Source: Actinophytocola algeriensis (GTDB taxonomy: Bacteria; Actinomycetota; Actinomycetes; Mycobacteriales; Pseudonocardiaceae). Taken from it: DNA of 64,000 bases. Numbering within the stretch: position 1 is the stretch's first letter; each line of letters opens with the position of its first letter. Positions 32,860 to 35,902 of the stretch are shown in pieces. A model generated the notes under the pieces. The model searched no databases. It saw nothing but the letters and a program-made list of their open reading frames with translations, and was not told the DNA's origin. Made by a program: the position numbers and the translations under genes. The stretch spans positions 248,001-312,000 of the forward strand of contig NZ_JACHJQ010000004.1 of assembly GCF_014203735.1 (NCBI RefSeq), read 5' to 3'.

Positions 32860-33426
32860 TCAGCTCTGCGGCGGGACCTGCACCCAGCTGCGGTAGGTCT
32901 GGCCGCCCATGCGCAGGCGGGGCAGCGGCAGGAAGGTCTCGGCCTCGATGCCGTCGTACCCGTGCTTGACCACGGACCGGTAGAACCGCTCGGTCACGCC
33001 GAGGATCAGCGGCGCGGTGCTCTTCTTCAGCCGCGCCTTGAGTTCGGGGCAGTCGAGGAGCCGGACCATGAGGTCGATGTCCTCGCCGAACCGCCCCCGG
33101 CTGTCGTTGTGCACGTCCCCGAAGTGCATGGCGACACGCAGCCGGAACTCCTGCGCGTACAGCTCGTCCCGCAGCACGGGGATGAACGTGTTGACCAGGA
33201 CCGGCTTGGGCACCTCGTCGACGGGCTGGATGAACACGATGGCCCCGTCGCCGCGGTCGAGGAGTGGCTCCCGGCGCTCCTCGGTGATACCGCTGGCGAT
33301 CAGACTCTTCTCGAGCACGTCGTACATCGCGGCGCGGATCCGCGCCCGCTGGACGTTGTTCAGGTCCGTGGACCCCTCGACATCAACCCCTACGACTGTC
33401 CGCTGTACCGGGAACGGGGTGCTCAT
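32860..33426 (-). CDS. class III nucleotidyl-cyclase-like domain protein (degenerate)
   Basis: 188 residues, essentially one cyclase homology domain. VVGVDVEGST places the first metal Asp at 15, and LLDRGDGAIVFIQP the second at 60. LRVAMHFGDVHNDSRGRFGEDIDLMVRLLD corresponds to the loop RVGIH-G-V... G-DVN-AARL. Arg122 of the transition-state pair is kept, but the Asn four residues before it is Asp118. The Lys of the substrate-binding K-x-GD motif is also lost (DRGD). It may make an unusual nucleotide or only bind one. It is divergent from an XRE regulator gene, and a TTCAG-repeat site lies 65-80 bp upstream of its start. Confidence 0.7.
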   Translation of the reverse strand: MSTPFPVQRTVVGVDVEGSTDLNNVQRARIRAAMYDVLEKSLIASGITEERREPLLDRGDGAIVFIQPVDEVPKPVLVNTFIPVLRDELYAQEFRLRVAMHFGDVHNDSRGRFGEDIDLMVRLLDCPELKARLKKSTAPLILGVTERFYRSVVKHGYDGIEAETFLPLPRLRMGGQTYRSWVQVPPQS

Positions 33427-33490
33427 GTTGGCCGCGCATGCTTCATCACAGGCTCCCGTCTCTCCGGAGCTGCGTGGTCTCGAGTGATAC

Positions 33491-33506
33491 TTCAGTAAAG
33501 TTCAGT
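33491..33506 (+). promoter_or_regulatory. putative XRE operator site A (TTCAGT direct repeat)
   Basis: TTCAGTAAAGTTCAGT: two TTCAGT copies with a 10-bp period, one helical turn. It matches 14 of 16 positions with the reverse complement of 33678-33693 and lies on the cyclase-like gene's side of the divergent region. Confidence 0.65.
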
Positions 33507-33644
33507 GATTGTGGGTATCATCACTTGAGATGAGTTTAGATTGTCAGAACCCGCTGAACAAGCTGATGCTTCATCACGGAGTTACCACTCGAGGCCTGAC
33601 AGTTGCTGTCGCAGGGGCTGTCACTGCGTCAAATGCCGTGGCAC

Positions 33645-33650
33645 TATAGT
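33645..33650 (+). promoter_or_regulatory. putative -10 element for the XRE/GT-A operon
   Basis: TATAGT inside a GCACTATAGTGC palindrome (33641-33652). A start of transcription near 33657 would place site B (33678-33693) just downstream, as for a roadblock repressor. No good -35 hexamer is seen. Confidence 0.4.
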
Positions 33651-33677
33651 GCGCTCGGCGCTAACATCGCACCACTG

Positions 33678-33693
33678 GCTGAACTTCGCTGAA
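33678..33693 (-). promoter_or_regulatory. putative XRE operator site B (TTCAGC direct repeat)
   Basis: On the minus strand TTCAGCGAAGTTCAGC, two TTCAGC copies with a 10-bp period, the same architecture as site A in opposite orientation. It ends 15 bp before the ATG of the XRE gene. Confidence 0.65.
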
Positions 33694-33708
33694 AGACGTT
33701 GAAATCCA

Positions 33709-34764
33709 ATGGCGAATCTTGCGAGGCGGTTGAGGTCCCTCCGGACCGGTATGTGGCCGAGCATGCGCGTGACCCAGCTCCAGCTCGCGGCCGCGCTGGA
33801 CGTCAGCCCGGCCCTGATCTCGTCGTGGGAGAGCTCGAAGAGCTCCGCGGTCCCGCCGACGCACCGGCTGGAGGCGTACGCGCGGTTCTTCGCCACCCGG
33901 CGGTCGGTGGCCGGGGAGCAGTACCGCCTCCTCCGGATCGACGAGCTGACGGCCGAGGAGAACGCGGACCGCGAGGAGCTGCTCGACGAGCTGCTGGCAC
34001 TCGTCGCCCCGGAGCCCGCGGGCCGACAGACGCCCGGCCTGCCGTTCGACGGCACGATGTTCCGCTACCCGGCCGACGAGGACATCACGATCGTCTGCTC
34101 CGAGCTGCCGCAGGAGCGGCGCAGCAAGTTGTCGTACGCGGCCCCGGACTCGCCGGACTACATCGAGGCGTACAAGTACGCCGACCTCGACGCACTGCTG
34201 GAACTGCACGGTCACGTCCGGGCCGCCAACCCGCTGTCGAGGGTGAACATCCGCGTCGCCCCGCTGATGGCGGACGAGTACGCCACCCACCTCATCCTGC
34301 TCGGCGGCGTCGACTGGAACCCGGTCACCAGGGAGCTGATGTCGCGGGTCGACATGCCGGTGCGGCAGAGCAGGCGAGCCGAGGACGAGACCCTCGGCGC
34401 CTTCGAGGTCGGTCCGGAGGACGACGCCACCGTCCTCACGCCGTCGGCGCGGACGCTGGGCGAGCAGGCGGTGCTCACGGAGGACGTCGCCCAGATCTAC
34501 CGGTCCGTGAGCCCGTTCAACATCAAGCGGACCGTGACCCTCTGCAACGGGACGCACCAGCCGGGAACGCTGGGCATGGTGCGGGCGCTCACGGACTCGC
34601 GGTTCCGGGACCGCAACGAGCGGTTCATCCGGGAGCGTTTCGCCGGGTCGGACACCTTCACCCTCATCAGCCGGGTGAGCGTGATCAACGGTGTCGCCAT
34701 CACCCCGGACTGGTCACTGCCGGGTGACCGGCTGTTCGAATGGTCACCCGGTGACGACGGCTGA
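33709..34764 (+). CDS. XRE-type HTH regulator with large uncharacterised C-terminal domain
   Basis: 351 residues. An XRE helix-turn-helix spans about 1-65 (TQLQLAAALDVSPALISSWES, then PPTHRLEAYARFF). The remaining ~240 residues are an alpha/beta domain I cannot name; its conspicuous motifs are DEDITIVCSELP, YKYADLDALLELHGHVRAANP (in two parts), ATHLILLGGVDWN and RTVTLCNGTHQPGTLGMVRALTD. The strand-then-GGVDWN pattern recalls Rossmann-like nucleotide-binding proteins, which would fit a sensor of a cyclase product; this is inference. It overlaps the GT-A-fold gene by 14 bp. Two TTCAG-repeat sites in the upstream region suggest autoregulation. No clear Shine-Dalgarno at the ATG. Confidence 0.8.
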   Translation: MANLARRLRSLRTGMWPSMRVTQLQLAAALDVSPALISSWESSKSSAVPPTHRLEAYARFFATRRSVAGEQYRLLRIDELTAEENADREELLDELLALVAPEPAGRQTPGLPFDGTMFRYPADEDITIVCSELPQERRSKLSYAAPDSPDYIEAYKYADLDALLELHGHVRAANPLSRVNIRVAPLMADEYATHLILLGGVDWNPVTRELMSRVDMPVRQSRRAEDETLGAFEVGPEDDATVLTPSARTLGEQAVLTEDVAQIYRSVSPFNIKRTVTLCNGTHQPGTLGMVRALTDSRFRDRNERFIRERFAGSDTFTLISRVSVINGVAITPDWSLPGDRLFEWSPGDDG

Positions 34765-35902
34765 GCCCGGCAGGCTCGCGGCCTCCGTCCACCACCACGG
34801 TCGGCACGACGCCCTCATCGACACCCCTCCGCACGCCGCGCCGGGCAAGGTCGACGCGATCATCGTGCCGACCGCCCGTTCGGCGAAGGAGATGGCCTAC
34901 GCCGTCAACCTGGCGAAGAGGCTCGGCTGTGTCCTGGTCGCCCTGTGCAGCAGGTGGTCCATCTTCACCGAAGTGGTGAAGGTCGCCCGTCCGTTCGGGA
35001 CGGAGGTGATCGTCATCGACGCCCGGCGGCTGCCTCCCGGTGTCCTGCCGCGGTTCTCCACCGACCGGCTGCTCGCGGGCACCCGGTTCTACCGGACGAC
35101 CGACACCAGCCAGAAACGCAACCTGGGCCTGCTCATCGCCCGGCTGAGCGGCTGGGAACGAGTGGCCTTCCTCGACGACGACATCACCATTCCCGAGCCT
35201 TCGGACCTGAAGGTGGCGGCAGGGCTCACCGATCGCTACGCGGGTGTCGGTCTCCAGATCGATCCGCGATCGCCCAGCTTCCCGGACAACTCCGTGGTGT
35301 GCCACGCCTACCGGGACGCGGGCGGTGACCAGGGCATGTTCGTCGGTGGTGGCGCGCTCGTCGTCGGGTCGGCGTCGATGACCTCGTTCTTCCCCAACAT
35401 CTACAACGAGGACTGGTTCTTCCTCCTCGGCGAGGACAACCTGCGCCCGGTCACGATGGTCGGCCGGGCCCTGCAGCGGCCCTACGACCCGTACGAGGAC
35501 GGCAGTCGCGCCCAGGTGGAGGAACTGGGGGACTGCCTCGCGGAAGGGCTGTTCTGGCTGTTCGACAACGGCGGGTCCATCCAGGACGCCGACGCGGTGT
35601 TCTGGCAGAGCTTCCTCGCGAGGCGGATCAGCTTCATCGCGGACGTGGTCGCCATGGTCAACCGCATGCCGGGGGGCGGTGGGAAGCGGCTGAGGATGCT
35701 GGCGGCCCTCAAGGCGGCCAGGGACCGCAGTGAGCGGATCAAGCCGGACCTCTGCACCCAGTTCGTCGCGAGGTGGCGGAACGACCGGGTCACCTGGCGC
35801 AACCACGTCGACGAGCTCCAGGAGCGGCACCGCGTCAAGAACGCGGAGAAGGTCCTGACGACCCTGGGGCTGACGGGGCAGTCGCGCTACCTGTCGTCAT
35901 GA
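34751..35902 (+). CDS. GT-A fold (glycosyltransferase-like) protein
   Basis: 383 residues from the GTG at 34751, inside the end of the XRE gene (14-bp overlap, so translation is coupled). The centre has GT-A hallmarks: TSQKRNLGLLIARLSGWERVAFLDDDITIP with the metal-binding Asp triplet (142-144), then MFVGGGALVVGSASM and IYNEDWFFLLGED, which resemble the acceptor loop and catalytic acidic residue of inverting GT2-like enzymes. The donor and acceptor are unknown. The C-terminal ~100 residues are helical and basic. Its tight coupling to an XRE regulator with a possible nucleotide sensor, next to a cyclase-like gene, is unusual. Confidence 0.75.
   Translation: MTTAEPGRLAASVHHHGRHDALIDTPPHAAPGKVDAIIVPTARSAKEMAYAVNLAKRLGCVLVALCSRWSIFTEVVKVARPFGTEVIVIDARRLPPGVLPRFSTDRLLAGTRFYRTTDTSQKRNLGLLIARLSGWERVAFLDDDITIPEPSDLKVAAGLTDRYAGVGLQIDPRSPSFPDNSVVCHAYRDAGGDQGMFVGGGALVVGSASMTSFFPNIYNEDWFFLLGEDNLRPVTMVGRALQRPYDPYEDGSRAQVEELGDCLAEGLFWLFDNGGSIQDADAVFWQSFLARRISFIADVVAMVNRMPGGGGKRLRMLAALKAARDRSERIKPDLCTQFVARWRNDRVTWRNHVDELQERHRVKNAEKVLTTLGLTGQSRYLSS

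Follow-up and report, generated by a model that had tools for sequence, protein, structure and literature searches.

What does an XRE-type regulator control, and what does it sense, when its gene is divergent from a cyclase-like gene and runs into the gene for a glycosyltransferase-A-fold (GT-A-fold) enzyme? This question is raised by a locus of Actinophytocola algeriensis (assembly GCF_014203735.1, genome of 9.73 Mb) within a stretch of 64,000 nucleotides (NZ_JACHJQ010000004.1, positions 248,001 to 312,000), which is called the window here and sits on a single contig. The original prediction for this locus was an undescribed cassette of three genes, in which a nucleotide from the cyclase-like protein is sensed by the XRE protein and sets expression of the GT-A-fold enzyme (GT). 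Our analysis points to a different circuit. The overall best explanation, to which we give about an even chance, is a bidirectional XRE autorepressor that would be relieved by a ligand, with the divergent gene, designated as the slot gene, as a second output.

Relatives of the XRE gene were collected by scanning GTDB species genomes, and the best 80 of 153 relatives (named loci) were compared. The search patterns were built from alignment A1, and distant relatives are therefore under-counted. A1 comprised 22 of the 30 XRE loci L002-L031, with the window in place of L002; the omitted loci included L019, which carries an internal stop. Alignments A2 and A3 held 22 and 19 relatives, respectively, plus the window. 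Gene calls were based on GC content by codon position, which placed some genes on the wrong strand, so the GT, GNAT, cyclase, and Crp genes were counted by tblastn. The original prediction was staked on a neighbourhood conserved in other genomes, and this was found: GT directly follows XRE in 76 of the 80 named loci, which belong mainly to three families, Pseudonocardiaceae, Streptosporangiaceae, and Micromonosporaceae. The three predicted genes are thus linked and conserved, and a fourth had been overlooked. A GNAT acetyltransferase gene is located at most 3.2 kb downstream in 58/80 named loci. It is convergent in all 33 loci with a cyclase gene and in five others, and co-directional (XRE-GT-GNAT) in 20.

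The same-family sample of 150 genomes overlaps the named set (L003 and L098, for example, are the same place by coordinates). XRE relatives were detected at E 1e-10 in 45 of these genomes, including the window's own and seven detected by the sensor domain only. GT relatives were present in 29 genomes, and 26 had a cyclase relative at E 1e-18. In this sample, the top-ranking XRE relative came from a same-genus genome (G115), and the named loci include Actinophytocola oryzae (L098). Within L002-L031, the window included, 28 of the 30 loci had a GT relative and 15 had a divergent cyclase. In a class-wide sample, XRE was detected at E 1e-20 in 10/394 genomes and 4/138 genera, the window's included, indicating that the module is sparse beyond a few families. 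Flanking genes were common within genera (Kibdelosporangium, Amycolatopsis, Saccharothrix) and different between genera, as expected for resident, mainly vertically inherited genes. Two XRE-family copies, in tandem or on opposite strands, were close together in L031, L146, and L148 and in genomes G104, G249, G260, G472, and G495.

The divergent position is not occupied by one kind of gene. It encodes a cyclase-like protein in 33 of the named loci and a small membrane hairpin in 37, and neither was found in 10 (among them L159, whose small-protein match was an unrelated c60 protein). The two never occurred together within 1.1 kb upstream of XRE (0/80). The small membrane proteins are 59-83 amino acids long and have two or three hydrophobic segments as counted by a hydrophobicity window, not a trained predictor; two segments with a basic loop are typical. 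A single family for all of them was considered and rejected, as the three groups matched each other with probabilities of 3.2, 0.8, and 0.1% in profile comparison; they are alike in size and topology only. XRE identity to the window was similar with either partner, at 53% in Lentzea (cyclase) and 52-53% in Saccharothrix (membrane protein). A single change between the cyclase and membrane-protein states sufficed on the XRE tree, which was built by a quick method and is weak at its deep forks. More distant XRE relatives in L185 and L186 adjoin other small hydrophobic proteins (60-85 amino acids) in convergent orientation.

The operators were retained whichever gene occupies the slot, indicating that they go with XRE. 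The exact repeat TTCAG-N5-TTCAG, on either strand, occurred 64 times in the 29,657 bases upstream of XRE in the named loci, where 0.12 copies were expected from dinucleotide shuffles, and three times in the remaining 1,133,616 bases of the same loci. At least one exact repeat was present upstream of XRE in 49/80 loci. Conservation of the TTCAG sites among relatives, which the original prediction had proposed as a check, was thus confirmed, and its claim of co-regulation is strengthened, as paired conserved sites, one on each side of the divergent region, are strong evidence that the two sides are controlled together. The site is broader than the repeat and consists of alternating half-sites, TGAA-N-TTCA-N-TGAA, with the consensus aCTGAAgTTcaCTGAAgg. 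A matrix was trained on the 64 exact upstream copies. It gave a score of at least 12 in 66/80 intergenic regions, namely 33/33 with a cyclase, 26/37 with a membrane protein, and 7/10 with neither; in the other three loci without a slot gene (L124, L132, and L157), the sites were gone too. Scores of at least 12 were also obtained in 17 of the 31 loci that supplied no training site, and 2/305 random 300-bp stretches reached a score of at least 10 as background. The regions upstream of 33 convergent GNAT genes contained no site with a score of at least 12.

In the whole genome of the window, TTCAG-N5-TTCAG occurred five times and a reversed-pattern control four times. Two of the five are at this locus, and these two copies only have AA in common at spacer positions 3 and 4. 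We read the repeats as a local, autoregulatory site set, and their co-conservation with the XRE gene suggests that the XRE protein is the binder. Among 49 alignable loci, a TANNNT motif preceded the proximal site by 25 bp in 21, by 24 bp in 7, and by 26 bp in 7, which would place the site immediately downstream of the transcription start.

The profile of the cyclase family matched the single-domain class III cyclase Ma1120 of Mycobacterium avium (5d0g/4wp9; E 1.1e-4 to 5d0g, profile residues 6-127). The window protein itself had no match in Pfam, PADLOC, or NCBIfam. The positions that we take to be the metal Asp pair and the Arg of the cyclase motif were aligned with 5d0g. The active site of class III cyclases normally has Asn. 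As originally predicted, the window protein has Asp15, Asp60, and Arg122, with Asp118 in place of the usual Asn. All three catalytic residues are kept in the window and in 28 of the 33 cassette cyclases; Asp15 is lost in five, Asp60 in two, and Arg122 in two. Unlike Ma1120-type cyclases, 29 of the 33 have Asp at the Asn position (2 Asn and 2 Glu in the others). The five proteins without Asp15, which have Ala or Gly instead, are Lentzea-type cyclases (L100, L101, L115, L120, and L137), and two of them also have Gly for Asp60 and Arg122. They form one clade (support 100/100). The pairwise ratios of nonsynonymous to synonymous substitution rates (dN/dS) among the five were 0.18-0.60, with the two closest pairs at 0.18 and 0.22, and those of the listed pairs with Asp15 were 0.11-0.54; a crude counting method was used, and the deeper values are uncertain. 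These values suggest that the gene without Asp15 stays under purifying selection, with room for relaxation. Asp15 was lost and the gene was retained, indicating that the protein outlasted a presumed loss of catalysis. Apart from the cassettes, L193:5679-6635 encodes an XRE-type HTH (residues 11-72) fused to a cyclase domain of the window family (122-301), and the non-cassette cyclase relatives in L188, L189, and L197 adjoin LuxR-type response regulators (by Pfam in L188 and by eye in the others).

In 15 Amycolatopsis loci (L112, L113, L116, L122, L123, L127, L130, L147, L149, L150, L151, L152, L158, L160, and L162), the cyclase gene is followed on the same strand by a gene for a Crp-type regulator. 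The gap was 22-34 nt in the three loci measured (L112, L127, and L130), and Pfam detected a cyclic nucleoside monophosphate (cNMP)-binding domain and a Crp HTH in the two proteins analyzed. The Amycolatopsis cyclase locus L163 has no Crp neighbour, and L132 and L159 have neither cyclase nor Crp. A seemingly unrelated protein with two transmembrane segments is encoded behind crp in Amycolatopsis. Taken together, the slot exchange, the loss of Asp15, and the Crp neighbour suggest that XRE does not in general read the cyclase product.

What, then, might the XRE protein sense? Its domain layout was taken from a 22-row alignment, and the structure model (predicted local distance difference test score, pLDDT, 87.6) has N-terminal helices at residues 2-61. 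Like known XRE autoregulators with a C-terminal ligand-binding domain, the protein combines an HTH with a large C-terminal domain, and operators lie both at its own promoter region and at the divergent one. Unlike them, its sensor domain belongs to no Pfam or NCBIfam family. The sensor domain also occurs without the XRE HTH in proteins of about 400 amino acids at seven loci (L178-L184; for example, L179:5888-7249). By gene calls, with Pfam run on L179 only, a GT25-like gene lies alongside in 6/7 and a hexapeptide-transferase gene in 6/7, suggesting an analogous uncharacterised cassette. We tentatively place the ligand on the sugar side, mainly because the sensor is here paired a second time with a glycosyltransferase and an enzyme of acyltransferase type.

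The structure model of the GT (pLDDT 90.9) was compared using Foldseek. The best matches were MtdL (7xps; E 1.1e-6), a nucleoside-diphosphate-pyranose mutase of GT75, and reversibly glycosylated polypeptides; the model is also near mannosyl-3-phosphoglycerate synthase. Its template-modelling (TM) score against MtdL was 0.43, with 12% identity and a root-mean-square deviation of 10.9. The best sequence match (7xpu) was weak, at E 0.21, and has a [KR]RN[LV]G...DDD stretch in common with the GT. Residues 142 and 144 of the motif D142-D143-D144 and Arg188, located 46 residues past it, are invariant in 20 rows. In MtdL, the nucleophilic Arg159 comes 48 residues after Asp109-111 (PMC9937993); a correspondence of Arg188 to it is uncertain. 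In contrast to MtdL, the cassette GT has no significant Pfam family. The window protein had no match in Pfam, PADLOC, or NCBIfam, and the best GT models reached 2 of 20 members at E 0.037. The GT could be either a mutase or a transferase. The GNAT match to Acetyltransf_1 is above the Pfam cut-off.

These results are consistent with a chromosomal regulatory module of filamentous actinobacteria that would be inherited mainly vertically. By binding to the alternating TGAA/TTCA half-sites at each side of the divergent region, the XRE-type protein would repress its own operon (XRE-GT, or XRE-GT-GNAT in some lineages) together with the slot gene. A small ligand in the sensor domain would relieve this repression, and most likely comes from the substrate or product side of GT and GNAT, that is, a nucleotide sugar or a glycan precursor; what the two enzymes modify, we infer. 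The slot gene would be the second output. In many lineages it encodes a small membrane hairpin, which appears to have been replaced by a class III cyclase-like protein in part of Pseudonocardiaceae. The cyclase product, where made, would be read by another receptor, which in Amycolatopsis is probably the adjacent Crp-type protein.

Several observations weigh against this explanation. The HTH matches of the window's XRE protein are significant (HTH_31, E 8.5e-5; HTH_3, E 3.9e-4) and fall below the curated cut-offs of Pfam. The sensor fold resembles BcsB weakly (E 5.9e-4, TM score 0.29), which does not indicate a ligand with certainty. The cassette cyclases are not one clade on the cyclase tree (four changes, only one of which is forced by strongly supported branches), and the cyclase may thus have been recruited into the slot more than once. 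The GNAT gene is absent from Saccharothrix-type loci, and 11 of the 37 membrane-protein loci have no site at a score of at least 12. A simple promoter scan of the window found no sigma-70-type promoter, so that repression in the window is proposed by analogy. We infer the binding by XRE, its effect on expression, and the ligand from sequence.

The module is built from familiar kinds of parts; what is new is their arrangement, the exchange in the slot, and the retention of a cyclase without Asp15. The predicted cassette proved to be real and conserved, and no description of it was found in the literature searched, including the available parts of PMC9937993, PMC2447327, PMC7159879, and PMC8195603. 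The module is found in three families of actinobacteria, all rich in natural products, although the cyclase-like protein, GT, and sensor domain of the window match no Pfam, PADLOC, or NCBIfam family. It offers a natural experiment: one regulator and operator set with two unlike proteins in one position, and a lineage in which a catalytic residue of the cyclase was lost and the protein kept. Non-catalytic roles of cyclase folds thereby become testable in a small, self-contained locus.

A tentative reading, possible in our view and still doubtful, is that the occupants of the slot are functionally equivalent. One autoregulator would deploy either a hairpin or a cyclase fold for the same job near the membrane or an envelope-glycan pathway, and in Lentzea the fold would be a non-catalytic, dedicated regulatory pseudo-cyclase. 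If true, this would be a new signalling module in which a class III cyclase fold is linked to an acetyltransferase and a sugar enzyme resembling GT75.

Somewhat more doubtful is the possibility that the cyclase-like protein is a protein partner of XRE, an anti-repressor or co-repressor with or without bound nucleotide, in which catalysis plays a secondary role and has disappeared in Lentzea. The single clade of cyclases without Asp15, with low dN/dS in its closest pairs, and the HTH-cyclase fusion in L193 fit this possibility. So does the available part of PMC7159879, which describes actinobacterial conflict systems that keep inactive cNMP cyclase domains beside signalling parts. However, more than half of the cassettes have no cyclase, the membrane hairpin takes the same slot, and dN/dS rises to 0.60 in distant Lentzea pairs, where the crude values are compatible with relaxation.

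We consider it unlikely that the locus is a conflict module, of a defence or toxin-antitoxin-like type, in which XRE silences a slot effector and GT and GNAT act as modifiers. The exchange of unlike proteins under one regulator would suit such a module, as would the small proteins with two hydrophobic segments and a basic loop, and some XRE members match antitoxin-type HTH models (HipB-like, E 8.2e-6). The systems of PMC7159879 resemble the cassette in their retained inactive cyclases and in the glycosyltransferase and GCN5-like acetyltransferase domains among their associated parts; they differ in that they are vWA-MoxR and related systems, with no mention of XRE in the available part of that source, and their NTPases were not specifically sought at the cassette. 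Pycsar is likewise a small cassette with a class III cyclase-like gene, and 3/23 members of the cyclase family match PycC weakly (best E 8.4e-4). Unlike in Pycsar, the cyclase and the membrane protein of the cassettes are mutually exclusive rather than paired, and the window cyclase has no PADLOC match. Neither has the window GT, and the XRE protein gave PADLOC HTH matches at E 0.02-0.03 only. The phage search gave no match, the plasmid set gave one partial match, which covered 17% of the query and lay in an 11.85-Mb record, and a viral fold library gave no match at E 0.001 or better. The flanks conserved within genera also speak for resident genes. A defence system was set aside after PADLOC scans and phage and plasmid searches gave nothing convincing.

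The circuit of the original prediction, in which the cyclase-like protein makes a (cyclic) nucleotide that the XRE sensor binds to set GT expression, is improbable as a general mechanism. It agrees with the divergent linkage and shared operators, with the catalytic residues kept in most cassette cyclases, and with the L193 fusion of a family cyclase to an XRE-type HTH. However, 47 of the 80 cassettes have no cyclase, the divergence of the sensor is independent of the slot partner, Asp15 is lost in the five Lentzea-type cassettes, and a Crp-type receptor follows the cyclase in the 15 Amycolatopsis loci. As XRE, GT, and mostly the sites persist without a cyclase or with one that lacks Asp15, such a circuit was rejected as the general one; it may operate in single lineages. 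That the co-occurrence and the repeats are chance or plain synteny is hardly credible, even though many of the 80 loci are from close species, which are not independent, as the XRE-GT pair occurs in three families with different flanks, the repeats are concentrated upstream of XRE (64 in 29.7 kb against 3 in the 1.13-Mb control), and 17/31 loci outside the training set still score. These numbers refute that reading unless gene calls were mistaken in every locus.

The features of the locus are summarized in Table 1. The predicted gene coordinates, the overlap of the XRE and GT open reading frames (ORFs), which is exactly 14 nt, and both TTCAG repeats were correct when the ORFs and the sequence were checked.

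Table 1 Features of the XRE-GT locus, in positions of the window.
Feature	Position	Strand	Remarks
Cyclase-like protein (slot gene), 188 aa	32860-33426	−	ORF ATG...TGA; class III cyclase Ma1120 profile match
Operator A, TTCAGTAAAGTTCAGT	33491-33506	+	65 bp from cyclase start; conserved in relatives
Operator B, TTCAGCGAAGTTCAGC (minus-strand reading)	33678-33693	−	Directly ahead of XRE start; proximal copy conserved
Imperfect element TTGAA	33699-33703		Beyond operator B
XRE-type regulator, 351 aa	33709-34764	+	ORF ATG...TGA; HTH ~4-64, sensor domain ~110-345
GT-A-fold enzyme, 383 aa	34751-35902	+	ORF GTG...TGA; DDD motif, residues 142-144
GNAT acetyltransferase, 167 aa	35897-36400	−	Pfam PF00583, E 2.3e-11; convergent with GT gene

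The intergenic region also contains a 12-bp direct repeat, ATGCTTCATCAC, at approximately 33438-33449 and 33568-33579, which was noted by eye and is separate from the TTCAG sites.

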